Positions 3,786 through 30,394 of a stretch of 64,000 nt of DNA are shown in pieces. Position numbers and translations under genes: made by a program. Numbering within the stretch: position 1 is the first letter of the stretch; each line of letters starts with the position of its first letter. A model generated the notes under the pieces. It saw nothing but the letters and a program-made list of their open reading frames with translations, was not told where the DNA came from and did not search any database. This stretch comes from Pectobacterium zantedeschiae (GTDB lineage: Bacteria > Pseudomonadota > Gammaproteobacteria > Enterobacterales > Enterobacteriaceae): assembly GCF_004137795.1 (NCBI RefSeq), contig NZ_NWTM01000001.1, positions 2,531,229 to 2,595,228 of the forward strand, given 5' to 3'.

Positions 3786-6284
3786 ATGGAAATTAAGACC
3801 ATTACACTCAAAGAAAAAATAAAATCCGAGTTATTTCGCTATGGTATTTTTATTTTCTCTTTGAGCACAACATCGCTCAGTGCAACGGAATTTAACATTA
3901 ATGTACTGGATGTCGATGAGCGCAGTGATATTGATCTTAGCCATTTTTCCGACCCCGAATACGTCACGCCCGGCACTTATCTTTTATCAATAAAAGTAAA
4001 CTCGCGTGAAATACAGCAGCAAACGATTAGTTACCTGCCGCAAGGCAATAATAGCCCTCGGCCAACGGCCTGCCTCTCGACCGAACTCATCGATAAACTA
4101 GCACTGAAAAAAGAAGCGCGCGACCAGGCTGAATTATGGAATAACGGCGCGTGTGTCGATCTAACGCCAATTGCTGGCGTCAAAATCTCTAATCAAATAG
4201 GCATGGGAACGCTAAATATTACCATTCCTCAAGCCTGGCTTGTGTACAGCGATAGCAACTGGATTCCGCCCGAACAATGGGATCACGGCATAAACGGTGC
4301 GCTTCTGGACTATAACCTCGTCGGAAACGTACGCCGTGATACCAATGGCAGAGGCACATCACACTATCTCAGCAGCTACGGCACAGCCGGATTTAATCAG
4401 GGAGCCTGGCGCTACCGTGCCGATTACCGCTACTTTCTGCAAAAATCGCGCAACTCAAATCGCGATAGCTTCTCGTGGGATCAATTTTACGCCTATCGTC
4501 CGCTGCCAACCCTATCGGCCGATCTTAAGCTGGGTGAAATGTATTTCAGCAGCAATCTTTTCGATAGCTATCGCTTTACCGGTATGTCATTAGCCAATAA
4601 CGAGAACATGCTTCCCCCTTCGCTGCGTGGCTACGCGCCTGAAATTCGCGGCGTTGCCAAATCAAACGCGACGGTGACCGTCACACAAAATGGCAGGCTA
4701 ATATACGAAACCACCGTGCCTGCTGGCCCTTTTGCGATTCAGGATATGAAAAATGGCGTCAGCGGAACGCTAGACGTTCGCGTGACGGAAGAAGACGGCA
4801 CGGTGACAACATTCCAGACCGAGTCGGCCAACCTGCCTTACCTGACGCGGCCAGGGCATGTGCAGTACAAACTTGCCGCAGGTAAACCCTCGAACACCAA
4901 TCATCGTCTGCAAGGCCCGGCCTTTTCTGCTGCCGAAGCCTCATGGGGATTATCCAACGCGTGGTCGGTGTACGGTGGCAGCATTCTGTCCAATAACTAT
5001 CAGTCCTGGTCGGTAGGCATAGGGAAAAACCTCTACCTGCTGGGTGCGCTGTCCGCTGATATCACACAGTCACGCGCGACACTTCCGACAGCGCCATCGT
5101 CGCAAATGGGACATGCGTTTTCTCTTAACTGGTCTAAATATTTCAATTCAATCGATAGCCAGATCAGTTTTGCGGGCTACCGCTTTTCAGAGAAGACCTA
5201 CATGAGCATGGCGCAGTATCTCTATGCACTGAATCTTGATAACCGCTATCGCAATGAAAAAGAGCGCTATACCATTACGCTCTCAAAAAATTTCTCGGCG
5301 CAAGAGTCGTCCTCGCTGCTGAGTGGGCTATCAACCTACGTTACCTATACGCGCCAAACTTACTGGAATGAAGCCGAGCAGGATCGCTACGGCATTTCGT
5401 TAAACAAATACTTTGATATCGGTGAAATTAAAGGAATTTCTGCGAATTTATCGGCCTATCGCACCGAATTCAACCGCCGCACCGATGACAGCCTGTACCT
5501 AAGTTTTTCTATTCCACTCGGAGAAAAAGATCGCCTGAGCTACAGCATCGGGCGCTATAACGACGGCAGCAATCAGGCATTAACCTATTCCAATAACGCC
5601 GATCCGCGCCGAACCTGGAATCTAAGCACCCGACACGATAGCAAAGAGAACATTTACCTGAGCGGCAACTATACCCATTTGGCACCGATGACAGATGCCT
5701 CCGTTGGCGTCGCCTGGCAGCAGGATCGTTATACCTACCTGAATGGCTCACTACGCGGTGGAATTACCGCCACCCGCCATGGCGTCGCGGCCCATCCGAA
5801 AGGCAATCAAGGCGGCACTCGCATCATGGTCGACACGGAACAAGCTGGCGTACCGTTCTCTGGTAGTCAGGTCGAGACTAACCGCTATGGCCTGGCAGTG
5901 ATTGCCGGTACCAGTAGCTACTACGATGTATCGACCCGTATTGATTTACAGAAATTACCGCAAAATATTGAAGCCATGACGACAGTGGTTCAGGGCACGC
6001 TGACCGAAGGCGCGATTGGCTACCGCAAATTTGACGTGGTTAGCGGGGAAAAAGTCATGGCTCACGTTGCGCTAGCCGATGGCAAATATCCCCCATTTGC
6101 CGCCCAGATCAAAAACAAGAAAGGCCGAGATATCGCCATGATCACCAACGGTGGGCAAGCCTATATCACAGGCGTATCGCCTGACGAAACGCTGTCCGTC
6201 ATCTGGGAGGGGAGAACGCAGTGTTCCATCACCCTGCCCGCCACCTTAAATCACCTTGATGCGCTGCTGCTTCCCTGTAAATAA
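3786..6284 (+). CDS. Fimbrial outer-membrane usher protein
   Basis: 832 residues, the usual usher size. The N-terminus has a hydrophobic signal (YGIFIFSLSTTSLSA) and then the chaperone-binding domain opening FNINVLDVDERSDIDLSHF. The middle is an aromatic-rich beta barrel with the plug region (LRGYAPEIRGVAKSNATVTV, about residue 280). The C-terminal domains include TIVVQGTLTEGAIGYRKFDV-like sequence and a final conserved Cys pair (QCSITLPA ... LPCK). It forms the outer-membrane pore that receives chaperone-subunit complexes and assembles the fimbria. It lies between pilin and chaperone, all co-directional. No frameshift or truncation seen. Confidence 0.95.
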   Translation: MEIKTITLKEKIKSELFRYGIFIFSLSTTSLSATEFNINVLDVDERSDIDLSHFSDPEYVTPGTYLLSIKVNSREIQQQTISYLPQGNNSPRPTACLSTELIDKLALKKEARDQAELWNNGACVDLTPIAGVKISNQIGMGTLNITIPQAWLVYSDSNWIPPEQWDHGINGALLDYNLVGNVRRDTNGRGTSHYLSSYGTAGFNQGAWRYRADYRYFLQKSRNSNRDSFSWDQFYAYRPLPTLSADLKLGEMYFSSNLFDSYRFTGMSLANNENMLPPSLRGYAPEIRGVAKSNATVTVTQNGRLIYETTVPAGPFAIQDMKNGVSGTLDVRVTEEDGTVTTFQTESANLPYLTRPGHVQYKLAAGKPSNTNHRLQGPAFSAAEASWGLSNAWSVYGGSILSNNYQSWSVGIGKNLYLLGALSADITQSRATLPTAPSSQMGHAFSLNWSKYFNSIDSQISFAGYRFSEKTYMSMAQYLYALNLDNRYRNEKERYTITLSKNFSAQESSSLLSGLSTYVTYTRQTYWNEAEQDRYGISLNKYFDIGEIKGISANLSAYRTEFNRRTDDSLYLSFSIPLGEKDRLSYSIGRYNDGSNQALTYSNNADPRRTWNLSTRHDSKENIYLSGNYTHLAPMTDASVGVAWQQDRYTYLNGSLRGGITATRHGVAAHPKGNQGGTRIMVDTEQAGVPFSGSQVETNRYGLAVIAGTSSYYDVSTRIDLQKLPQNIEAMTTVVQGTLTEGAIGYRKFDVVSGEKVMAHVALADGKYPPFAAQIKNKKGRDIAMITNGGQAYITGVSPDETLSVIWEGRTQCSITLPATLNHLDALLLPCK

Positions 6285-13680: not shown

Positions 13681-15912
13681 TTAGAAATTGTAGTTGACCG
13701 TCATTGAGACACTGCGCGGCGTTCCATACACAGCATAAGGCGCAAGGTAGTCGTAATACTCTTTATCAAACAGGTTATTAATATTTGCCTGTACCGCCAG
13801 CTGTTTAGTGACCTGATAGCGGCTAAATAGGTTAACCAGCGCGTAGCTGCCTTGTTCGGCACGTAACGTTGTGTTTTGTGGGCCGGAACCTTCCTGCCAG
13901 ATGCCATTTTGCCAGTTCACTCCACCGCCGACGGTTAACTCTGGCAATGTTGGTAACTGGTAGCGGGTAAACAGCTTGAACGACGTACGCGGCAATTCTG
14001 GATTGACCGATTTGCCATCTTTATCATCAACCACATAGCGTGAGCCGCCAAACGTCATTTGCAGGTTATCCGTCACCGCGCCATTGACTTCAAATTCGAT
14101 CCCTTTGCTGACGACACCGTCAACAGCGTAATAAATTGTCTCGTTCGATCCTGCAAAACGACTACTATCCGTCTGGGCCACGTGATCCTGTTCAATACGA
14201 AAAACAGAAACAGACGCAGTCAGGCGACTGTTATACCAATCTCCTTTCAGACCCGTTTCATAGTTTCTGCCCGTGGTCGGCTGCAAGTAGGTTTTGTTGA
14301 TATCACGCTTGTTATTTGGCTGGAATATATCGGTATAGCTGGCATACGTCGACCAGGTATCGTTGATGTCATACACCAGTCCTGCATACGGTGTAATACG
14401 GTTTCTACTATCACTATCCGAAGACCCCGTCACACTCCAGTCGGTATAACGTGCACCGACGATCAGGTGCAACGGATCGGCTAACGAAAAGCGTGCAGAG
14501 GTGTAGACTGATTTCTGGCGTGTCGTAGAATTTTCGTAAGGCTGCCAAGCACTCCATGTAGGATCGGCAAGGTTACCATTCCAGTTGAAATAGTTACCGA
14601 CAGCCGTAGAAGTGAGCGTATCTAGCGGATAAGAGTTATTGTAGTCATTACTTTGTTTACTATAACTCGCTCCTACCACCAATTCATGCTGGCGACCTAA
14701 CAGCTCAAAGGGACCAGTCGCAAAAGTATCGACTGAATCGACTTTACGCTTCCCTCTGTTCCAGCCACCATAGGCCCCAACGGCCACAGTGTTATAGGTA
14801 GGATAATAAGGATCCACCAATACCCCTGTGTTTTTGTCTGGGAAACCGTTGGCATACATCTGTTTCGAATCAAAATTCGTCTCGTCATGCGTGCCGTTCA
14901 TCCGCACCTGCCAACCACTATCAAAACGCTGGGTCAAACCGGCAAACACCTTTTTCGACGTTGTATCGGTATAGCTCCAGTTAGGTGCAGAATTAAGGCT
15001 GCGATCAAAACGAACACGGCTGCCATCACTGTACCATGTCGGCAAGCCTCCCCACGTTGAGTTAGTATTGTGATTATCCTGGTAGTCATAGCCAAGCGAT
15101 AACGTGGTGGAATCTGTTACATCGGCGTCGATCACACCGTAGAGGAATTTTTTACGACTGTGATAACGATCGAGCCAGGTGTCGTTATCCTGATAGCCAG
15201 CAACTACGCGCCCGCGCACATTACCGGACTCCGTCAGCGGTGCAGACAGGTCGGTCACCATCCGTTGTTTATCCCACGAGCCGTAGCTGCCAGACACCGA
15301 GCCTTTGAACTCGCGGCTATCCGCATGCTTACGCACCATATTCACCGCCGCAGAAGGATTACCCGTTCCTGTCATCAGCCCGGTCGCGCCACGCACCACT
15401 TCGATACGGTCATAGATTGCTGTATCCGAAGCGGAGTCTCCAAAGTTCCAGATATCGTCAACCACTGTCGGAATATCGTCGAACAGATAGTTATTGATAA
15501 GAAAACCGCGAGCGAAATACGTCATGCGTTCAGAATCAATAGTTTTAGAGGACAACCCCGTCGTATTCGTCATCACCTCGCCAATCGTTTGCAGGTTCTG
15601 ATCTTCGATACGCTGCTTGCTGATAACACTCACCGACTGCGGGATATCACGCGGCGTCAGCGTCATCTTCGTTCCGGCGTTAGTGACTTTCACACTGTAA
15701 TCCTGCGGATCGCTGTCCTCTGCATTAGCATTGGCGTTAGCGCTGACGACAAGCGTATCACCTGAAGCAGGGGTTTCTTCGGCAACAGCCTGAGCAGGCA
15801 GGAAAGAGGCGGAAATCAACAGGGCGAGAAGAGAGACTCCGAATGGTTTTGCTCCGGCCAGCGAAGAATCACAAACGCGCGTTTTTCCGGCGCGAGTAAC
15901 TCCAAAAGACAT
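13681..15912 (-). CDS. TonB-dependent siderophore receptor (FhuE/FpvA-like)
   Basis: About 743 residues from ATG 15912, which has AGGA eight bases upstream (the frame continues to 15990 without a better site). A signal peptide (FGVSLLALLISASFLPAQAVA) is followed by a TonB-box-like DTLVVSA. The plug domain has DIPQSVSVISKQRIEDQNLQ, ARGFLINNYLFDDIP and IEVVRGATGLMTGTGNPSA, diagnostic of ferric-hydroxamate-type receptors. The barrel ends in a C-terminal Phe (SVSMTVNYNF). It imports a ferric siderophore across the outer membrane using TonB. FhuE-like (coprogen, ferrioxamine) is my best guess. A Fur-like site lies upstream. Confidence 0.93.
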   Translation of the reverse strand: MSFGVTRAGKTRVCDSSLAGAKPFGVSLLALLISASFLPAQAVAEETPASGDTLVVSANANANAEDSDPQDYSVKVTNAGTKMTLTPRDIPQSVSVISKQRIEDQNLQTIGEVMTNTTGLSSKTIDSERMTYFARGFLINNYLFDDIPTVVDDIWNFGDSASDTAIYDRIEVVRGATGLMTGTGNPSAAVNMVRKHADSREFKGSVSGSYGSWDKQRMVTDLSAPLTESGNVRGRVVAGYQDNDTWLDRYHSRKKFLYGVIDADVTDSTTLSLGYDYQDNHNTNSTWGGLPTWYSDGSRVRFDRSLNSAPNWSYTDTTSKKVFAGLTQRFDSGWQVRMNGTHDETNFDSKQMYANGFPDKNTGVLVDPYYPTYNTVAVGAYGGWNRGKRKVDSVDTFATGPFELLGRQHELVVGASYSKQSNDYNNSYPLDTLTSTAVGNYFNWNGNLADPTWSAWQPYENSTTRQKSVYTSARFSLADPLHLIVGARYTDWSVTGSSDSDSRNRITPYAGLVYDINDTWSTYASYTDIFQPNNKRDINKTYLQPTTGRNYETGLKGDWYNSRLTASVSVFRIEQDHVAQTDSSRFAGSNETIYYAVDGVVSKGIEFEVNGAVTDNLQMTFGGSRYVVDDKDGKSVNPELPRTSFKLFTRYQLPTLPELTVGGGVNWQNGIWQEGSGPQNTTLRAEQGSYALVNLFSRYQVTKQLAVQANINNLFDKEYYDYLAPYAVYGTPRSVSMTVNYNF

Positions 15913-15990
15913 GGTATATCCTCGGTTAACTAAAGATGATTTTGGCGAGATGCTGATACGTTTCTTGTCAATATCCGCACAAAAAAGCAA

Positions 15991-19373: not shown

Positions 19374-19473
19374 GCCATGATGGCCTTGGGATGGAGTCTT
19401 ATATATCAACGAGGAATTCCTTCTCGTGAAATAATAAGGCTGATTAGCAATATTCATGCTAGGAAAAGGATTT

Positions 19474-21342
19474 ATGCCAAAAATAAAAACACTTCTCACG
19501 CCCCTAAACTGCCTACTCGTTTTAAGTGGCGCATTAATGGTCAATACGGCAAACGCCGCTGAGGCTTGTGTCGCAGGCAGTTGGCAGGTGGATAATTCAA
19601 TTACCGATATGCCTTCCGTGAAATACCAGACAGAGCACTTTGCCTTCCGCTGGAATAATAACGACGTGAACCGTAATGATGCGGTTGCTGCGGGGCAAAA
19701 ACTGGAACAAATTTGGGATAAGTTCATTAACCAAATTCAGTATCCAGAGCCTTACTGCAAACAAACGGTGAAATATAAGGCCAATATTCACATCGATCCC
19801 ACTTTTGGGCTCAGTGGAGGTATTGCAGGTGGTGGCAGCATGGGAATGTGGATCGGCCCAGCCTCACTCAAGGATAACTGGGGACTGGCACACGAATTTA
19901 CCCATGCGCTGCAAGGACAAACTGGCGGCTTCCAGGGCGCAGGCGGAGAAAACTACGTTGGCTGGATTTGGGAATCCCACGCGAACTGGATGACGCACCA
20001 GATGGATGAATTCCGCGGTACGTCAGCACACTGTTCGGAAATGCAGGTCAACTATTCACATATTTATTTGGGTTCAACACGTAACCGTTACTGCAACTGG
20101 CAGTTTATGGAATATCTGAAGAACCGCTTTGGCTATAGTGTCATCAACGATATGTGGTCAAAAGCGCCGAAAGGAGGCGAAAGCGGCCAGTCTACTGCCG
20201 ATCCGCTATCCGTTCTGCGTAGCAACATGGGCTGGAGCCAGTCTGAATTCAACGATGTCTTCGGTGACTGGGCGATGCACAACGTCAACTGGGATTACAT
20301 CGATCCAGATGGCTTCGATCGTGGTCGCTTTTACCGTTCAACCTACGGCGGTTATGGTGCGGTTCAACCCAACCAGAATAACGCCGACCGTTTGCTGAGA
20401 ACCACTGCGCTTGAGCCCGTTGTCGGTGCCAGCGCTAGCCTTCGACGCTTCTCCGTACCGTTCGATCAGGCTCCGCAACAGTTAGGCTACAACATCGTCC
20501 GTCTGATCCCAGAAAGCGGTGCAACGAAAATCACCGTTAAATTCCGTGGCATGGTGCAAAGCAAATCGGCCATTACCCGCTTCCCTGGGCTGAAAAACGA
20601 TCCGGCAACGATGCCACAGCCAAATTCCGACTGGCGTTGGGGTATTGTCGCTATCGGTTCCGACGGCGTTTCACGCTACAGCGAATTGCAGCGCGGCGCA
20701 TCCGCTACGGTGAAGAACTTCACTATCCGTCAGGACGATAGTGGCATTTACATGGTGGTAATGGGCACACCATCGCAAATGCAGAAGATCAAGTGGGATC
20801 AGGCTTACTACTCCCTTTACCGCTACCCGTGGATGGCTGATTTCACTGGCGTCTGGCCGGAAGGCAGCCAACCTGGGGCCCCGAATCCAACCGCTAATGG
20901 TTCTCGCCATCCAAACGGCGGCGGCTGGGTATCTAACTCCGCGAATGTCGCACCTACCGCATACGTCGGGCCTTATGCTCGCGTCATCGGTGGTACGGTG
21001 AGGGATAACGCCAGAATTGAAGATCATGCAACGATTCTGAGCGGAACAGTGGAAGGACGTGCCGTTGTCAGTGGCCTGACGGTCATGCAGGGCAATACTA
21101 TCGTGCGCGACAATGCACGACTGCATACGGTCTTCATGGGGCCAGGAGCTTATGAACGCGGCATTGTGCTATCAGGCAATGCGCAGATGCGCGGGGATGC
21201 GGAAATTCGCGGTGCTTCCGCGTCACAGGGTGTGTTCTATGGCTTTATTGATGAAAATGAAGTCAAAAGCAGTGCAGCCGGTGCTTACCTGACCGAAGCC
21301 GTGCCAGAAGTGACGGCCGTTCCGGTCTATAGCACGAAATAA
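19474..21342 (+). CDS. svx: Svx-like secreted virulence-associated protein, putative gluzincin
   Basis: 622 residues from ATG 19474 (AAGGA five bases upstream). A Sec signal peptide ends near NTANAA (residue 28). The sequence matches my memory of Pectobacterium Svx, a type II-secreted protein related to the Xanthomonas avirulence protein AvrXca. Residues 140-144 are HEFTH within GLAHEFTHALQG, and WIWESHANWM places a Glu (residue 167) 23 residues later, a spacing compatible with a zinc gluzincin. The C-terminal 130 residues (about 490-610) contain repeated short units such as GTVRDNARIEDHATILSGTV and GNTIVRDNARL, suggesting a left-handed beta-helix of hexapeptide type. No secretion partner is adjacent. 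Confidence 0.85.
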   Translation: MPKIKTLLTPLNCLLVLSGALMVNTANAAEACVAGSWQVDNSITDMPSVKYQTEHFAFRWNNNDVNRNDAVAAGQKLEQIWDKFINQIQYPEPYCKQTVKYKANIHIDPTFGLSGGIAGGGSMGMWIGPASLKDNWGLAHEFTHALQGQTGGFQGAGGENYVGWIWESHANWMTHQMDEFRGTSAHCSEMQVNYSHIYLGSTRNRYCNWQFMEYLKNRFGYSVINDMWSKAPKGGESGQSTADPLSVLRSNMGWSQSEFNDVFGDWAMHNVNWDYIDPDGFDRGRFYRSTYGGYGAVQPNQNNADRLLRTTALEPVVGASASLRRFSVPFDQAPQQLGYNIVRLIPESGATKITVKFRGMVQSKSAITRFPGLKNDPATMPQPNSDWRWGIVAIGSDGVSRYSELQRGASATVKNFTIRQDDSGIYMVVMGTPSQMQKIKWDQAYYSLYRYPWMADFTGVWPEGSQPGAPNPTANGSRHPNGGGWVSNSANVAPTAYVGPYARVIGGTVRDNARIEDHATILSGTVEGRAVVSGLTVMQGNTIVRDNARLHTVFMGPGAYERGIVLSGNAQMRGDAEIRGASASQGVFYGFIDENEVKSSAAGAYLTEAVPEVTAVPVYSTK

Positions 21343-23154: not shown

Positions 23155-23444
23155 CGACCCAGCCAGTGGCTTCACTGGCTATGCATTTTCCGCTGCTCTC
23201 ACCAGCCAGATGTACTTTTCCCTTCTCTGGGATTCACTCGCCGCTGTTATAAATGATGTAAAAACATCAAAAAAACTTATTTTTTGACAAAAAATTACCA
23301 TCAAAACGTATCAACATGAAAAATTAATCACATAAATGTAAAAAAAATTAAACAAACCCTACCTATATTGGCTGCTTTGTTTCGGCGCCACGCGAATTGC
23401 CCGACGCCGATATTCAGACATTCGCGCCTGTAGGGAATTGAGTA
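23155..23444. promoter_or_regulatory. Promoter region of the TonB-receptor-hydrolase operon
   Basis: About 290 bases. 23240-23350 is AT-rich and contains a perfect 16-base palindrome, TGATGT-AAAA-ACATCA at 23254-23269, a candidate operator. I see no Fur box and no pair of PhoB-type CTGTCAT repeats. Confidence 0.5.
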
Positions 23445-23849
23445 ATGAGAAACTGGAACGAACCTAAAAAGCAAAAAGCCCACATCGATTTGGTTCCCAT
23501 GATCGATGTGATGATGTTCCTGTTGGTCTTCTTTGTCCTGATCAGCATGAACGTTATTCCAGCACTAGGCCTGAAAACACAGCTCCCCGCCGCAGGCAGC
23601 GCACAGCAACTCAAGCCGCAGAAAAAAGCGATCATTACGCTGGGTGCACAAGATCGTCTTGAGCTGGACGGGCAGCCGATGGCACTGGGCGATCTCATCA
23701 ATACGCTGCAACAGCAGCAGCAAGACCAGCAAACCACCATCATTATCAACAGCGATAAAAGCGTCGAGGTTGAGCGTCTGGTCGCCGTCATGGATACCCT
23801 GCGTCAGGGGGGCTTCTCGTCCATTTCTATCGCAACCCGGAAATCGTGA
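23445..23849 (+). CDS. exbD: ExbD/TolR-family biopolymer transport protein
   Basis: 134 residues with one N-terminal membrane helix (HIDLVPMIDVMMFLLVFFVLIS). The Asp in VPMIDVMMF is the conserved proton-pathway residue of ExbD/TolR. The periplasmic domain reads QDRLELDGQPMALGDLINTL and ends DTLRQGGFSSISIATRKS, typical of the family. With ExbB (26998) and TonB (23851) it would form the proton-driven motor powering the receptor encoded next. It is unusual that exbD comes first and exbB is separated from it by the tonB and receptor genes. tonB starts one base after this stop codon. Confidence 0.93.
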   Translation: MRNWNEPKKQKAHIDLVPMIDVMMFLLVFFVLISMNVIPALGLKTQLPAAGSAQQLKPQKKAIITLGAQDRLELDGQPMALGDLINTLQQQQQDQQTTIIINSDKSVEVERLVAVMDTLRQGGFSSISIATRKS

Positions 23850-23850
23850 C

Positions 23851-24594
23851 ATGTATCTGCTCTATCGCTCACGCCACGCCATCAGTTGGTTGCCGTTGCC
23901 GGTCTTTGCCACCTGCCTGTTCTTCGCCAGTCAACAACCGCCGCTGAAAGTTAAGCAGCAATACGACGAAACGGTCATGGCGATCATGCTAGCTGAACCG
24001 GAGCCGGTTCCCCAGTCCGAACCGATCCCAGAACCGGAACCTGTGCCACAGCCGGAACCCGAGCCGATTCCAGTTGATGAGCCAGATCCGATTATAGAAA
24101 CACCGCCGGTTATTCCCCCTAAACCGGAAGTGAAGCCGAAGCCTAAACCGGAGGTTAAGCCCAAGGCCGAAACCAAACCGAAACCGACACCCGCTCCGGC
24201 TAAACAAACTGCACCACGCACGGAAGCACCGGCCAAGCGCCCGGCACCGGCTACAAATGCGGTGCCATCTGCACCGTCGGTGAATGTCGCCGCGCTGGAA
24301 AATAGCTATGCGCAGGCACTGCGTGCGCAGCTTGAACAAACCAAACGCTACCCAACCGGGCGACAGGCATCGCTTGAACGTCCCGAAGGTCGCGTTGAGG
24401 TCTGGCTGGAAGTCGATCGTACAGGGCGAGTCATCAATTCAGGGATCAACAGCAAAGCGCCCAGCATGCTGCTAAACCGAGCGGCGCAAGCCAGCTTACA
24501 GAGCATCAAACAGGTTCGGGCCTTCCCTGCCGACGCCTTTGCAGGACAAAGCACAAAACGCTTTTTAGCCACGTTCGATTATCAGGCGCAGTAG
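23851..24594 (+). CDS. tonB: TonB-family energy transducer
   Basis: 247 residues from ATG 23851 (the open frame extends further upstream inside exbD, but this start directly abuts it). One N-terminal membrane helix (ISWLPLPVFATCLFFA) is followed by a long periplasmic Pro-Glu then Pro-Lys spacer (about residues 50-125), and a globular C-terminal domain with TKRYPTGRQASLERPEGRVE and VWLEVDRTGRVINSGI, the standard TonB_C pattern. The N-terminal helix has His before the hydrophobic run but not the S-x3-H spacing of E. coli TonB, so it may be specialised for the ExbB/ExbD of this operon. Confidence 0.92.
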   Translation: MYLLYRSRHAISWLPLPVFATCLFFASQQPPLKVKQQYDETVMAIMLAEPEPVPQSEPIPEPEPVPQPEPEPIPVDEPDPIIETPPVIPPKPEVKPKPKPEVKPKAETKPKPTPAPAKQTAPRTEAPAKRPAPATNAVPSAPSVNVAALENSYAQALRAQLEQTKRYPTGRQASLERPEGRVEVWLEVDRTGRVINSGINSKAPSMLLNRAAQASLQSIKQVRAFPADAFAGQSTKRFLATFDYQAQ

Positions 24595-24671
24595 CGTTTC
24601 GCACCTGAGCAAGAGAGTGAATCAGCAAAACAATGTCAACAATACATTACTGATAATACTAGGATAATTAA

Positions 24672-26912
24672 ATGAAACCGTTCAAACTTTCTGGGGTATG
24701 TTTGTCCGTCGTCGGCGCATTATTGGCAGGATCTGCGCTGGCGGAGGAGGCGACAAATGTCGGCACCATCAACGTACAGGGACAACCGCTCGGCGCAGGA
24801 TTAATGGTTCAGGAAGATAGCGCCAAATCGCGCTCAACCGTGACAAAAGACGCGCTGGATAAAATGCCCGCAGCAGGCAACGCCATTGATAAACTGAAAT
24901 ACACCGCAGGCCTGAACGTCAGCAGCAATGACGCCAGCGGCTTGAGCGGCGTCAGCTATACCATGCGCGGCATGAGTGCGGATCAGGTCGGCCTGTCATC
25001 AGATGGCATTCCCGTCAATGACTCCGGCGACTACGCCGTGTACCCGAACGGCATGGGAGACCCGGAAAACCTGGAGCAGATTTTCGTCACCCAAGGCTCA
25101 TCAGAAATGGACGGCCCGCACATCGGCGCCAGCGGCGGCAACATCGGGCTGGTTTCCCACCGTCCGGCGAAAGAGTTTGGCGGCTTCGTTAAGCAGACGT
25201 TCGGCAGCAACAACCTCAGCAAGACCTTTGCTCGTTTGGAAACCGGTAAACACAACGGCTTCAGCAGTTGGCTCTCCTACTCATACACCGACTCCGACAA
25301 ATGGCGTGGCGCAGGGTATTCCCGTGCCGATAAAGTCGAATGGAACGGCCTGTATGAACATGAAAATGGCCACAGCAGCAGCCTGATTGTGAAATACAAT
25401 CAGCAAGATGCCATCAACTATTCGACGTTGAGCAAACGGCAGTTCGAGCAAAACGGGCGTAAGATGGATTACGCCACGACGCCGGTTTACAACAACCGTG
25501 GACAGATTTCTCAATACTACAAAATTAACCGCAATAACTTCGAAACGCTGAATGTCACGTTCACCCAGAAATTGCAGCTACGCGATAATCTGGCGCTGAC
25601 CTTACAACCCTATTATTTCTCGACGAACGGCGGCAGCCACGGTAGCGGAAGCGCCAGCGTGTTATCCGCAACGTCAGACCGCGCGGGTAACTACGATCTC
25701 AGTAACCTAACCTCCAATACCTACTACCGCCCGTCGTGGACGGAAACCTGGCGACCGGGTATCACCACCAAGCTGAAATGGGATCTTAACGACGAGCATA
25801 GTCTGGATATCGGCTACTGGTTCGAGCGTGCACGTCAGCGCCAAACGCAGCCGTTTATTCCGATTAAGAGCGACGGCACCCCAGCTAACATCTCCGGCAA
25901 ACCTGGCGATGCGGATCAGATCACCGACGCGAACGGGAAAGTGGTTCAGGGCCGTAATCAGTTTACCGTCACACCCGCTCATAAAATCTGGGTACAGAAC
26001 ACCTGGTTCTTCTCACCGGAATGGACGTTCACTGGCGGTCTGGCCTATCAGCACGTAGAACGTGACGGGACTAACCTCGGCAGCTTGTATAGCGTCGCAG
26101 AGAAAAAGAACAAGAAGTACCACGAGTTCCTGCCCAGCTTTAACGCGGCCTACCGCATCAATACCGAAAATCAGGTGTTCTATAACATCACGCGCAACAT
26201 GCGTACTCCACCCAACTACGTCTTGTACAACGTTGGCGACTCAATCAATACCAAACCTGAGTTGAGCTGGAATCAGGAACTCGGCTGGCGCTTCCAGAAT
26301 GAAGATATGCTGCTGAGTGCCTCATTGTTCTTTATCCGCTTTACCGATCGCCAGATCTCCAGCCGTGACGCCAACGGTGATTACGAAATGATCAATGCCG
26401 GAAAAGTAGAAAACAAAGGGCTGGAGCTGGAGTGGAGCGGCAAGCTGCCTCATAACTTCAACTACTTCGCCGCTTATACCTACACCGATACCGAGCAGAA
26501 AAATAATCTCGCCACCAGCGGCAGCCAGCTCCCCACCACGGGCAAGCAGGTCGCCAATGCGCCGAAAAATATGCTCAACCTTGGGCTGGGCTATGACGAC
26601 GGCCTCTACTACGCGGGCGTGAATAGCCGCTACGTCGGCTCGTTCTACGGCGATATGACCAATGACGAGAAAATCGGTGGACGTACCGTTTTCGATCTCA
26701 GCGCCGGTGTCTATCTGCCAGTGGATAAGAAGATCGTGAAAAGTGCCACCTTACGCGTTGGCGTCAGCAACCTGTTCGACAAAGAGTATCTCGACTCTGC
26801 GCGCTCAGTGAGCTTCAACTCAAGATCGTATAACGGCGTATCGGCAGGCACACCGTTTTACAACGTCGGGGAAGAACGCACCTTCAGCGCCTCACTGGAA
26901 GCCACGTTCTAA
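24672..26912 (+). CDS. TonB-dependent outer-membrane receptor, substrate unknown
   Basis: 746 residues. A signal peptide ends at GSALA-E, followed by a TonB-box-like GTINVQG. The plug contains AIDKLKYTAGLNVSSNDASG, YTMRGMSADQVGLSSDGIPV and LEQIFVTQGSSEMDGPHIGASGG. The barrel ends in the TonB-receptor signature VGVSNLFDKEYLDSAR and a C-terminal Phe (SASLEATF). The plug lacks the RG.TGLM.G pattern of the siderophore receptor at 13681. Being flanked by its own TonB/ExbBD genes and two secreted phosphoester-type hydrolases, it probably takes up something other than ferric siderophores. Substrate is inference only. Confidence 0.9.
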   Translation: MKPFKLSGVCLSVVGALLAGSALAEEATNVGTINVQGQPLGAGLMVQEDSAKSRSTVTKDALDKMPAAGNAIDKLKYTAGLNVSSNDASGLSGVSYTMRGMSADQVGLSSDGIPVNDSGDYAVYPNGMGDPENLEQIFVTQGSSEMDGPHIGASGGNIGLVSHRPAKEFGGFVKQTFGSNNLSKTFARLETGKHNGFSSWLSYSYTDSDKWRGAGYSRADKVEWNGLYEHENGHSSSLIVKYNQQDAINYSTLSKRQFEQNGRKMDYATTPVYNNRGQISQYYKINRNNFETLNVTFTQKLQLRDNLALTLQPYYFSTNGGSHGSGSASVLSATSDRAGNYDLSNLTSNTYYRPSWTETWRPGITTKLKWDLNDEHSLDIGYWFERARQRQTQPFIPIKSDGTPANISGKPGDADQITDANGKVVQGRNQFTVTPAHKIWVQNTWFFSPEWTFTGGLAYQHVERDGTNLGSLYSVAEKKNKKYHEFLPSFNAAYRINTENQVFYNITRNMRTPPNYVLYNVGDSINTKPELSWNQELGWRFQNEDMLLSASLFFIRFTDRQISSRDANGDYEMINAGKVENKGLELEWSGKLPHNFNYFAAYTYTDTEQKNNLATSGSQLPTTGKQVANAPKNMLNLGLGYDDGLYYAGVNSRYVGSFYGDMTNDEKIGGRTVFDLSAGVYLPVDKKIVKSATLRVGVSNLFDKEYLDSARSVSFNSRSYNGVSAGTPFYNVGEERTFSASLEATF

Positions 26913-26928
26913 TTCGATAACGTAATAC

Positions 26929-26952
26929 GACAGTGCGGGCAACCGCGCTGTC
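26929..26952. other. Intergenic hairpin between receptor and exbB
   Basis: GACAGTGCGG and CCGCGCTGTC (one G-T pair) around GCAA, 16 bases after the receptor stop. No T-run. It may stabilise the receptor part of the transcript or partly terminate it. Confidence 0.45.
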
Positions 26953-26997
26953 ACTAATCACAAATCACGCCCAACAAGGCAACAGAAGGATCAGGCC

Positions 26998-27666
26998 ATG
27001 AACGCCGATATGCTGCACGAGATTATTTTCTACGTCATGTACGCCTCACTGGTGATCGCTCTGATGATCATCATCGAACGAAGCCTCTATTTTTCCTATA
27101 CCCGTCGGCAGGCCAAACATCTGGATCGCGCGCTGACGGCGGATATTCGCCACGCTCACGATCTGCCGAATGCGCTGACACAGCGCCCCAGCCTGCCCAT
27201 CACGGTGGTCACACCTGTTCTGGCACAGTCACATCAGGCAGAAAATCGCGATGCGCTTAACGACCTAATCGACGCACAATATCTGCAAAGTAAACCGCAG
27301 CTATCTCGTGGGCTATGGATTCTGGAAACCGTCGTTACCGCAGCACCCTTGCTGGGGCTACTTGGCACTATTATGGGAATCATCGAAACCTTCAAGGCCC
27401 TGTCCGCCGCGGGGATTTCCGACCCGAGTCAGGTTTCTGCGGGAATGGGAACCGCGCTCTACGCGACCGGGCTGGGGATCGCCATCGCACTGGTTTGCCT
27501 GCTGGGGAATAATTTCCTGCAAAGCCGGATGGAACACATCAACGAAATGCTGAAAGTCCTGCTCATTCGCGCCGGAATGCCGCATACTCGCCAACAGAAA
27601 GCGGGCCCTGCGGTGGCACACAGCTCCATGACAGAGAAAGCAATGGCGGAGAAACGCTATGCTTAA
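26998..27666 (+). CDS. exbB: ExbB/TolQ/MotA-family proton channel
   Basis: 222 residues, three predicted membrane helices: IIFYVMYASLVIALMIIIER near the N-terminus, then the long conserved pair LWILETVVTAAPLLGLLGTI with MGIIETFKALSAAG, and AGMGTALYATGLGIAIALVCLLG. TAAPLLGLLGT and the Thr-rich helix are hallmarks of ExbB. It would partner ExbD and TonB encoded upstream in the same operon. Its last 8 bases overlap the phospholipase D-family gene, indicating tight coupling to that enzyme. Confidence 0.93.
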   Translation: MNADMLHEIIFYVMYASLVIALMIIIERSLYFSYTRRQAKHLDRALTADIRHAHDLPNALTQRPSLPITVVTPVLAQSHQAENRDALNDLIDAQYLQSKPQLSRGLWILETVVTAAPLLGLLGTIMGIIETFKALSAAGISDPSQVSAGMGTALYATGLGIAIALVCLLGNNFLQSRMEHINEMLKVLLIRAGMPHTRQQKAGPAVAHSSMTEKAMAEKRYA

Positions 27667-28999
27667 TTATGGTGGTTTCACGTATCCGGGGCGACGCTGG
27701 AAACATTGCATCAACACGCTGCTGACAGGAGGCGTATTGTTTATTGTAAGTACGTCAGCCAGTGCCGACACCAGCGCGAACGGCTATCACATTCCCGGCT
27801 ACGAATTAGTGTATGACGCCCCGGTAGAAACCACGCTGACCGCTCCCGATTTACGCCCTAGCGATGCGGTGTGGACATCGCTGTTTGATAACGCCCGGCA
27901 CACCATTGAACTGGGCCAATTCTATGTCGCTAATCAGGCAGGAACGCGCCTCGATAGCGTCTTGCAGCATCTGCGTGCCGCCGGAGAGCGCGGCGTGCGA
28001 ATCCGCCTGCTACTCGAAGAAAAAGGGCTAAAAATCTCCACGCCAGACACGCTGGAACAGCTCAAAACCATCCCGAATCTGGAACTGCGTGTGATTCCCT
28101 TTGAGCGCCTGAGCGGCGGGATTGTGCATGCCAAATACCTGCTGGTTGATGGCAAACAGGCTTATATGGGTAGCCAGAATCTTGACTGGCGAGCACTGGA
28201 GCACATTCACGAAACGGGGTTATTGATCGACGATCCGCGCGTGGTTCATCAGATTAGCGCCATTTTTGAACAAGACTGGCAGGCACAGGCGCGACTAGCC
28301 AACGGTGAAACCGTTCCGCCGTTACCCGCATCGACAGACGCCGTTGACCGTTCGGGAAACTATCTGGTTGCCAGCCCCAAAGCGTTTAATCCCGCTGGCG
28401 TGATAGATTCCGAAGAAGAACTTCCCCGCTTGCTGGCGGAAGCTCAGCAACAGGTTCGCATTCAGGTGATGGATTATGCCCCACTCTCCTACGGCCCCGA
28501 TAACACGCGCCCGTATTATGCAGTGATCGATAATGCAATCCGCACCGCCGCCGCACGCGGCGTACAGGTAGAGCTGATGGTGTCCGAATGGAGCACCAAA
28601 ATGCCAAATATCGCCTACCTGAAAAGTCTGGCGTTGCTCCCTAATATCCAGATAAAAACGGTGTCTATACCCCAAGCCAGCAGCGGCTTCATCCCTTTTG
28701 CTCGCGTGATCCACAGTAAGATCATGACCATCGACGGCAAAAAAGCCTGGATCGGTACCAGCAATTGGAGCGGCGGCTATCTGGATAACTCGCGCAATCT
28801 GGAGATGGTGATTCAGAACACAGCGATGACACAGCGGGTAGACATGCTCTATACACAGCTATGGAACAGTGCATACGCGCATCCTCTGCGCATTGATTAT
28901 GATTACCCACGACCCAACCCAGGCGGCGTGAAAGAAAAAGAGAAAACGAAGGAAGACAGCCCTTCATCCACGACAGGCGGCACGGTCACCGCACCGTAG
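27659..28999 (+). CDS. Secreted phospholipase D-family protein
   Basis: 446 residues with an N-terminal hydrophobic export segment (INTLLTGGVLFIVSTSASA). There are two complete HKD motifs: HAKYLLVDGKQAYMGSQNLD at about residue 157 and HSKIMTIDGKKAWIGTSNWS at about residue 350, so both halves of the bilobed active site are present. Such enzymes cleave or transfer phosphodiester bonds in phospholipids, nucleic acids or related molecules. The C-terminal tail is Lys/Glu/Ser/Thr-rich and probably disordered. It overlaps exbB by 8 bases and is followed 33 bases later by the phytase-like gene, tying a periplasmic phosphodiesterase to TonB-driven uptake. Confidence 0.9.
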   Translation: MLNYGGFTYPGRRWKHCINTLLTGGVLFIVSTSASADTSANGYHIPGYELVYDAPVETTLTAPDLRPSDAVWTSLFDNARHTIELGQFYVANQAGTRLDSVLQHLRAAGERGVRIRLLLEEKGLKISTPDTLEQLKTIPNLELRVIPFERLSGGIVHAKYLLVDGKQAYMGSQNLDWRALEHIHETGLLIDDPRVVHQISAIFEQDWQAQARLANGETVPPLPASTDAVDRSGNYLVASPKAFNPAGVIDSEEELPRLLAEAQQQVRIQVMDYAPLSYGPDNTRPYYAVIDNAIRTAAARGVQVELMVSEWSTKMPNIAYLKSLALLPNIQIKTVSIPQASSGFIPFARVIHSKIMTIDGKKAWIGTSNWSGGYLDNSRNLEMVIQNTAMTQRVDMLYTQLWNSAYAHPLRIDYDYPRPNPGGVKEKEKTKEDSPSSTTGGTVTAP

Positions 29000-29032
29000 C
29001 CACTACCAGAATGACATTTGATGGGGAATAGC

Positions 29033-30394
29033 ATGAAACATACGTTGTTAGCACTGCTGGTTGCCGGACTTCTGCCGTTCAGCGCTCAGGCCGCGGGAGA
29101 AAAAGTGACGCGCTATGTCGTCACCTTCCCGGCTGGCGATCGTGTTCCGTATCAGGGCACATTCGCTAAAAACTTCCCCAACGGTCTGCCTGTCGGCATT
29201 GGTTCAGGCCTCTATTTCACCGGCAAACAGGGTGACGACCTGATGTTTATCACCGTCACCGATCGCGGCCCGAATACCGATGCGCCGCTGGTCGGCGAGA
29301 AAGAAGCCAAGATCTTCGCCAGCCCTGACTACGCGCCGTTGATGATGGATATTCGGGTCAGTGCGAAAGCGGCAGAAGCCATAAACCCACGTTCGCTTCA
29401 CGATGCCGAGGGCAACATCACAGGCCTGCCGCTGCCAGCAGACTTCATTGGTACCACCAATGAAGTCGCGCTGAACGACGCACTGCAACCGCTTAGCACC
29501 AGCCAGCGTGGACTGGACACGGAAGGCATCACGCCGGATGGCAAAGGCGGTTTTTGGCTGTGTGACGAATATGGCCCGTTCCTGATCCACGTTGATGCCA
29601 GCGGAAAAATCCTGGAAAAATTCGGCCCAACGCCTGCGGACAATGAGCATTCGGTTGCCAGCGGCTTACCAAACATCATCAAATGGCGTCAGCCGAATCG
29701 GGGTTTTGAAGGGCTAACTCGCCTACCGGACGGCACCATCATCATGGCCGTGCAAAGTACGCTGGATATCGACGGTAAAAGCAAAAACAAAGCGCAGTTT
29801 ACGCGTCTGGTGATGTTTAACCCGGAAACCAAAACCAGCCGCATGCTGGGTTACCCCATCAACATCGACAGCTATAAGAAAGCGAAGGATGCCAAGATCG
29901 GCGATATCGTCGCACTGGATAATCAGCGTATTCTGCTGGTCGAGCAGGGTACGGATAAAGACAAGCAAATGCAGAACCGTATCTATCTGGTCGATCTCAG
30001 CAAAGCGAGCGACCTGACACCGTTCGATGCCGAGGGTAAATCACCGGAATTTGACGATTCCGCACAGTTGGAAAAACGTGGCATTACGCTGGCGCACAAG
30101 CAGGAGCTAGTCGATCTGCGTAAGCTCGGCTGGCAGCAGGAAAAAGTAGAAGGTCTGGCGCTAGTCGATAAACAAACGCTGGCCATCATTAATGACAACG
30201 ATTTTGGCCTGCAATCCGTGCTGCAATCCCCCGTGAAAGCAAAAGACAAGGCGGACGACTATCAGGTCAATGCTGATGGCAAACTCACACGAGACGGAAA
30301 GACAGTCGATACGACGTTGGCAATCAAACCGTTGCAGAAACCAGAAGCCGATAACGAGCTGTGGTTAATTCATCTGGCCCAACCAATAAAATAG
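29033..30394 (+). CDS. Secreted esterase-like phytase-family protein
   Basis: 453 residues from ATG 29033 (GGGGA six bases upstream; TTG 29018 and ATG 29021 are alternatives). A Sec signal peptide ends at SAQAA. Diagnostic sequence is GLDTEGITPDGKGGFWLCDE then YGPFLIHVD, with ITVTDRGPNTDAP before it and GFEGLTRLPDGTIIMAVQST after it, the pattern of the esterase-like activity of phytase domain, a beta propeller. It would act in the periplasm or outside, releasing phosphate from phytate-like or other phosphoesters. Last gene of the operon; a convergent hairpin follows. Confidence 0.9.
   Translation: MKHTLLALLVAGLLPFSAQAAGEKVTRYVVTFPAGDRVPYQGTFAKNFPNGLPVGIGSGLYFTGKQGDDLMFITVTDRGPNTDAPLVGEKEAKIFASPDYAPLMMDIRVSAKAAEAINPRSLHDAEGNITGLPLPADFIGTTNEVALNDALQPLSTSQRGLDTEGITPDGKGGFWLCDEYGPFLIHVDASGKILEKFGPTPADNEHSVASGLPNIIKWRQPNRGFEGLTRLPDGTIIMAVQSTLDIDGKSKNKAQFTRLVMFNPETKTSRMLGYPINIDSYKKAKDAKIGDIVALDNQRILLVEQGTDKDKQMQNRIYLVDLSKASDLTPFDAEGKSPEFDDSAQLEKRGITLAHKQELVDLRKLGWQQEKVEGLALVDKQTLAIINDNDFGLQSVLQSPVKAKDKADDYQVNADGKLTRDGKTVDTTLAIKPLQKPEADNELWLIHLAQPIK

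Follow-up and report, generated by a model that had tools for sequence, protein, structure and literature searches.

A stretch of 64,000 nucleotides from Pectobacterium zantedeschiae (contig NZ_NWTM01000001.1, forward-strand positions 2,531,229 to 2,595,228; the whole stretch is called the window below) carries a cassette that likely encodes a self-energised uptake system, driven by TonB, through which nucleic acid, nucleotides or nucleosides are acquired. The core of the cassette is formed by the five genes exbD-tonB-receptor-exbB-pld (23445-28999), the last of which encodes a secreted protein of the phospholipase D (PLD) superfamily and putative periplasmic exonuclease of the PLD3/PLD4 kind. 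Two observations support this reading. The window PLD is related to PLD3 and PLD4 and has kept the residues that contact the nucleotide, and nucleotide or nucleoside genes are recurrently linked to the PLD as well as to the receptor family. Known cargoes of TonB-dependent receptors are iron, haem, vitamins, metals and glycans. The core genes are as follows, in window positions.

23445..23849, + strand: exbD, 134 residues (PF02472, 116.7 bits)
23851..24594, + strand: tonB-like energy transducer, proline-rich, 247 residues (PF03544, 22.5 bits in the Pfam search of the window)
24672..26912, + strand: TonB-dependent receptor, 746 residues (PF07715, plug, and PF00593, barrel, as sole Pfam matches)
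26998..27666, + strand: exbB, 222 residues (PF01618, MotA_ExbB, 95.4 bits)
27659..28999, + strand: pld, secreted PLD-superfamily protein of PLD3/PLD4 type and predicted nuclease, 446 residues (from PDB searches, motifs and context; Pfam match PLDc_2, 132.6 bits)

The preliminary description of this DNA had proposed an operon of six genes, the sixth being a phytase-like gene behind pld, and coordinates and Pfam matches agree with it. All six are open frames in the same direction, each with a Pfam match. The exbD stop codon ends at 23849 and the tonB ATG lies at 23851, which leaves a gap of one base, and the exbB end at 27666 and the pld start at 27659 give an overlap of 8 bases. The signal peptides of the secreted proteins were assessed by eye. 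With plug and barrel domains and its own TonB, ExbB and ExbD encoded alongside, the receptor is equipped as a TonB-dependent transporter, and the dedicated Ton system that had been proposed is supported. The TonB_C score of the window tonB was 22.5 bits against a cut-off of 24.6 bits; it reached 24.8 bits in a genome-wide search, as the weakest of six TonB_C places in the genome. The window TonB is thus an extra copy.

A search with the PLD as sole query, restricted to one genome per species, gave 60 loci (loci and genomes are designated by L and G numbers). The genes exbD, tonB and exbB stand beside pld in 33 of these and, since the loci were found by their PLD, the block recurs beyond chance. 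A receptor of the window family adjoins pld in 32 of the 33 Ton-bearing loci, in split form in L025 and L067. Cassettes occur in Pectobacterium, Samsonia, Symbiopectobacterium, Serratia, Chimaeribacter, Pseudomonas, Sapientia, Solimicrobium, Herbaspirillum and Pandoraea, and four Pectobacterium species have the PLD loci nearest to that of the window, at 92-95% identity. The order exbD-tonB-receptor-exbB-pld was present in all 11 Serratia loci examined, S. plymuthica not being among them. Acinetobacter was absent from the 60 loci. In Pseudomonas spelaei (L033, 6994-10146) exbD, tonB, exbB and pld are present, and the receptor between tonB and exbB is absent.

The closest solved match of the window PLD was its orthologue SpPLD of Serratia plymuthica AS9 (PDB 7E0M, PMC8004604), with 629 bits over 381 residues. 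The next PDB matches, with E-values from 2e-35 to 6e-30, comprised only PLD3, PLD4 and a virion nicking-joining enzyme. When a profile built from 12 orthologues was run against solved structures, chains of these three enzymes scored at E 4e-51 to 3e-45, NucT at 6e-7 and solved true phospholipases D at 9e-5 or worse. The two HKD motifs mentioned in the preliminary description are present. The window PLD follows the pattern of PLD3, PLD4 and the nicking-joining enzyme, with two HKD/HKE motifs of which the first is followed by GSxNxDWR and the second by GTSNW, and in sequence solved phospholipases D and single-motif nucleases are more distant from it than PLD3/4. Among 84 PLD open reading frames, the first HKD motif was found in 84, GSQNxDWR in 82, [FY]ARVxHxK in 83, GTSNWxGGY in 83 and FY in 81. 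In Streptomyces and in human PLD1/2 the first of two glycine motifs is GG (PMC8004604, excerpt), whereas the window PLD has GS and then GT.

In human PLD3, single-stranded DNA is held by His201, Lys203, Asn218, His416, Lys418 and Asn432, Tyr411 stacks on the base, and Tyr126 and Asp220 touch it (PMC10783504, excerpt). The equivalent residues, read by eye off the alignment and for the Y126 position obtained by hand counting, are invariant in 12 of 12 PLDs except at the Y411 position, where either Phe or Tyr occurs and the window PLD has Phe. The motifs counted above in the 84 reading frames correspond to these DNA-holding residues of PLD3. Human PLD3 and PLD4 are lysosomal 5'-3' exonucleases that share with the window PLD the two-motif fold, GSxNxDWR, GTSNW and the nucleotide-holding residues. 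The window PLD differs from human PLD3 in being secreted, bacterial and encoded in a transport operon, and in having HKD rather than HKE as second motif. By this kinship the window PLD is probably an exonuclease; it would attack from the 5' end and act in the periplasm. Other secreted proteins of PLD3/PLD4 type that are annotated as phospholipase D may be nucleases as well.

SpPLD was published as a structure, and the excerpt of that paper reports no enzyme assay, operon or receptor (PMC8004604). Its authors describe a positively charged loop unfit for acyl chains along with nuclease-like features, and pose the question whether SpPLD hydrolyses nucleic acid (same excerpt). The nucleic-acid reading of the cassette offers a concrete hypothesis for that question. 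A functional parallel may be NucT of Helicobacter pylori, which we take to be an outer-membrane-associated PLD-family nuclease that salvages purines from DNA. NucT resembles the predicted role of the window PLD as a PLD-superfamily nuclease serving nucleic-acid nutrition, but it is a 162-residue chain with distant sequence (E 6e-7, as above), and we know of no TonB system for it.

The genes found around pld in other bacteria point in the same direction. In Janthinobacterium all 20 loci combine PLD with a guanine deaminase, a secreted adenosine deaminase, a TonB-dependent receptor, a secreted 5'-nucleotidase and an S1/P1 nuclease, and genes of a BMP-type ABC transporter occur in 19 of the 20. 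The receptor belongs to the window family in two of them (L035 and L037), as it does in L131, and is of Oar type in the other 18; the receptor therefore swaps while the hydrolases stay. In the family of genome G803, which is Burkholderiales-like by its receptor kin, PLD was present in 71 of 245 genomes, 22 of which were examined. Thirteen of these 22 loci have the window gene order (L079, L119-L130), and six of the 13 (L079, L121, L122, L123 with its PLD in two pieces, L126 and L127) have a 5'-nucleotidase between exbB and pld. A single cluster exbD-tonB-receptor-exbB-5'-nucleotidase-PLD thus exists in these six. A Janthinobacterium-like cluster is found in seven (L131-L136, L138), and L137 and L081 have neither arrangement. 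As a control, 17 of 20 PLD-bearing genomes of the family were found to hold one to four nucleotidase-family genes in 4.3-7.4 Mb, and in 13 of those 17 such a gene lies at pld. An S1/P1 nuclease gene lies at pld in 7 of 12 genomes. PLD3/4-type enzymes release 3'-mononucleotides and S1/P1 enzymes can serve as 3'-nucleotidases; if this chemistry applies, it would explain the co-occurrence of PLD, nucleotidase and S1/P1 genes.

The receptor family shows the same association away from pld. With the solved receptors the window receptor scored no more than 62.4 bits, the nearest including FecA, and its best general model, TonB-siderophor of NCBIfam, scored 172.1 bits and thus below the cut-off of 223.5. 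The neighbours of a second G803 receptor (L176) are a nucleoside hydrolase that is secreted, a kinase of the PfkB type and a permease of the xanthine/uracil type. With this receptor as query, 30 of 165 genomes yielded 35 places, 18 of them at pld loci by coordinates, and the other 17 (L176, L215-L230) were examined. Nucleoside or nucleotide genes stand alongside the receptor in 14 of the 17. A nucleoside hydrolase, kinase and permease are found in L176, L217 and L218, in the last two as one run with the order nucleoside hydrolase-PfkB kinase-nucleobase permease-exbD-tonB-receptor-exbB. L215 and L216 have a BMP ABC transporter beside the receptor. A 5'-nucleotidase is the neighbour in L220 (on the other strand), L222-L226 and L228-L230; in L225 the BMP transporter accompanies the set receptor-5'-nucleotidase-S1/P1 nuclease-adenosine deaminase, and L229 and L230 also have an S1/P1 nuclease. 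In L227 the sole match is a weak one to S1/P1 (38 bits), and contig ends truncate L219 and L221. The window receptor scored 288-366 bits with the 12 of these 17 receptors that were compared, and the L127 receptor falls inside its clade (support 99 by a quick method, on a long branch). Receptors of the window family are candidates for the uptake of nucleotide-like compounds, and the cargo of the window receptor would be derived from nucleic acid. Two receptors from genomes that fall outside the window's class (L174, L175) have different genes around them, the neighbour in L174 being an NMT1/THI5-like binding protein. Another TonB-dependent receptor of the window (13681-15990, - strand) served as outgroup in the receptor tree.

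In the mechanism that we propose, the receptor, powered by its own TonB-ExbBD, would import nucleic-acid fragments or nucleotides into the periplasm, where the PLD3/PLD4-like enzyme would clip nucleotides off single-stranded DNA or RNA, beginning at the 5' end. Nucleotidases would act next; they are encoded in the operon in other species and would presumably be general periplasmic ones in P. zantedeschiae. Inner-membrane nucleoside or base transporters would complete uptake. Fragments may be a likelier cargo than monomers, given partner enzymes for polymers and the cost of an energised receptor. The phosphodiester-type substrate suggested in the preliminary description is supported. We hold more tentatively, as possible rather than probable, a specific form of this proposal: TonB-dependent import of oligonucleotides with periplasmic digestion by a counterpart of PLD3/PLD4, in a family spread through Proteobacteria with interchangeable salvage partners, which would be the first such importer.

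The component parts of the system are of known kinds, and in searches of open-licence papers we found no description of their combination into such a TonB-driven nucleic-acid system. The HasB haem system, the Fus ferredoxin system of Pectobacterium and SusCD-type loci likewise co-encode a receptor with a private transducer or processing enzymes. Their cargo is haem, ferredoxin or glycan, whereas the partners of the receptor family described here are nucleotide enzymes. If our proposal is correct, a TonB receptor branch for nucleic-acid scavenging would add a cargo class and help to account for the use of DNA or RNA from the environment as food by some Gram-negative bacteria.

Several observations weigh against the nucleic-acid reading. 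None of the tested nucleotide families was found in the available flanks of loci from Pectobacterium, Samsonia, Symbiopectobacterium, Serratia and Chimaeribacter, so for cassettes of the Pectobacterium/Serratia type the function is carried over from relatives. Except for L127, the aligned receptors with nucleotide partners are about 32% identical to the window receptor, and L084, with a receptor 51% identical, combines exbD-tonB-receptor-exbB with an M1 peptidase but lacks pld. In seven of the 60 PLD loci a Ton system is missing and so are the nucleotide genes, some of these contigs being short. The 12-PLD profile also matches OPG057, which bears the name envelope phospholipase, at E 5e-24 and in the same clade. 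A neighbour-joining tree places SpPLD as highly related to a PLD of Acinetobacter radioresistens (PMC8004604, excerpt), and a fusion of the A. radioresistens a2 PLD (AOD20577.1) hydrolyses phosphatidylcholine and makes phosphatidylserine (PMC6530184, excerpt). The Acinetobacter enzyme may belong to the clade of the window PLD or may share only the fold; if it is close, lipid activity of the window PLD, alone or beside nuclease activity, becomes more likely. The lipid-active relative lowered our confidence in the nucleic-acid reading. For PLD3 one group found nuclease but not phospholipase activity and noted that other groups had described activity on lipids (PMC11653685, excerpt).

The last of these points lead to the alternative in which the window PLD is a genuine phospholipase D that is secreted, or else a glycerophosphodiesterase, and the receptor takes up phospholipid head groups, glycerophosphodiesters or pieces of phytate. 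We consider this unlikely. Apart from its HKD fold, the phospholipase name of the orthologue 7e0m and the active phospholipase D of A. radioresistens, it could draw on phosphorus-related neighbours: a PhoD gene close to pld or to exbD (9 of the 60 PLD loci; on the opposite strand and upstream of exbD in the 9 Pseudomonas-type loci, directly after pld in Pandoraea), a phospholipase C-related acid phosphatase adjoining pld in L061 (Stakelama) and L082 (outside the window's class), and a PhoB-box-like site upstream of the phytase-like gene. However, solved true phospholipases D match no better than E 9e-5, the 7e0m paper as excerpted has no assay and describes the charged loop and nuclease-like features (PMC8004604), the partners elsewhere are nucleotide enzymes, and the phytase-like gene occurs independently of the cassette. 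The preliminary description of the PLD as a phospholipase is weakly supported at best, although a related Acinetobacter enzyme acts on phosphatidylcholine.

Quite unlikely, too, is a cargo that is a nucleotide-containing small molecule (an intact cofactor, a dinucleotide or a nucleotide-peptide conjugate) rather than nucleic acid, which would be cut down in the periplasm by PLD and nucleotidase, joined in some lineages by a peptidase. Behind pld, 4 of 9 Pseudomonas-type loci (L036, L038, L040 with a small open reading frame in between, and L080) carry an M20 dipeptidase, and L033 has one farther away; this, which also counts against the nucleic-acid reading, fits a small molecule, as does the M1 peptidase with the L084 receptor, and 5'-nucleotidase and nucleoside hydrolase partners need no polymer. 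On the other hand, the peptidases are lineage-specific, and the S1/P1 nuclease partners and the PLD3/4 kinship indicate polymers.

The upstream sequence was searched for regulatory sites with, for Fur, a matrix built from a set of known sites.

23155..23444, + strand: exbD promoter region, aligned in 13 loci, with conserved blocks GATGTAAAAACATC and ATGAAAAATTAATCACATAAATGT
23161-23180, inside the exbD promoter region: terminator-like hairpin of mdtG

The best Fur-matrix match upstream of exbD was not significant (shuffle p = 0.88), in line with the lack of a Fur box noted in the preliminary description, nor was there a significant Fur site before the receptor (p 0.46), and of 34 further upstream regions just one reached p < 0.05. 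A receptor for a siderophore or metal chelate with a private TonB and incidental enzyme neighbours is therefore very improbable, even with TonB-siderophor as best, sub-threshold model and FecA among the nearest solved receptors, given this lack of Fur-like sites and the linkage to pld and nucleotide genes. The earlier argument that having its own TonB separates the system from iron is weak, because HasB is a TonB paralogue dedicated to haem; the case against iron is made here by gene context and the lack of a Fur site. CRP and PurR sites in the exbD promoter region were likewise not significant. The region is conserved in the window, 11 other Pectobacterium loci and Samsonia, and the palindrome GATGTAAAAACATC and the block ATGAAAAATTAATCACATAAATGT (ATCACAT block) lie within 23230-23370, upstream of exbD.

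The sixth gene is best regarded as an independent neighbour.

29018..30394, + strand: phytase-like gene, secreted beta-propeller, non-core neighbour (PF13449, 154 bits against a cut-off of 27.6)

It adjoins pld in 4 of the 60 PLD loci (three Pectobacterium, one Samsonia). The phytase-like gene is present in 24 of 25 Pectobacterium genomes and PLD in 14 of 25. Eleven of the 25 have the phytase-like gene without the cassette, in the order svx-mdtG-phytase-like, and G198 has the cassette without the phytase-like gene, so the proposed coupling of PLD and receptor to this gene is not supported. The predicted structure of the protein (pLDDT 90.6) matched propellers, with the C-terminal propeller of YjiK (3qqz) as closest known counterpart.

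In the 11 cassette-free genomes the distance from mdtG to the phytase-like ATG is 134-144 bases, and the best match of a PhoB matrix, compiled like its consensus from a set of known sites, was the same site in all 11, starting 79-81 bases before the ATG. Its sequence is YGRTCACARAACTGACAT in ten genomes and TGGTCACAAAAATGACAC in one, with a shuffle p <= 0.03 in 7 of the 11. In 7 of 24 relatives from other genera, the sequence around the phytase-like start agrees with the PhoB consensus at 12 or more of its 14 bases; among them L194 has 13/14 and L208 14/14, the L194 site falling within the longest phytase-like reading frame, which has a later ATG. Because of this predicted site, the phytase-like gene in its native setting behind mdtG may be a phosphate-starvation gene, and the matches in relatives suggest the same for its family in several Enterobacterales. 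The earlier phosphorus idea would fit the phytase-like gene in that setting. In the window this gene starts 18 bases past pld (33 to the likely ATG), which leaves no room for the native promoter, and it is therefore probably read through from the cassette. Where both occur they are probably co-transcribed, with the phytase-like gene outside the uptake system.

On a tree of 24 of the 25 Pectobacterium genomes plus Samsonia, presence of the cassette is scattered, with 9 changes of which at least 4 are forced. In G1158 (L180, 1-8731) exbD, tonB, mdtG and svx are gone from the upstream side, and the receptor reading frame starts with an unrelated stretch. By eye this stretch is like the fimbrial usher encoded at window 3786-6284, and the picture is that of a deletion fusing a usher-like stretch to the receptor. 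On a plasmid of Duffyella gerundensis (L087, 9004-10206) a PLD of the same family has annotated flanks without Ton or nucleotide genes. Two genes upstream of the cassette the window encodes a secreted protein of the Svx/AvrXca family (19456-21342; 1132.6 bits to NF040510), and svx adjoins mdtG in every Pectobacterium or Samsonia locus that holds mdtG, in pieces in L167.

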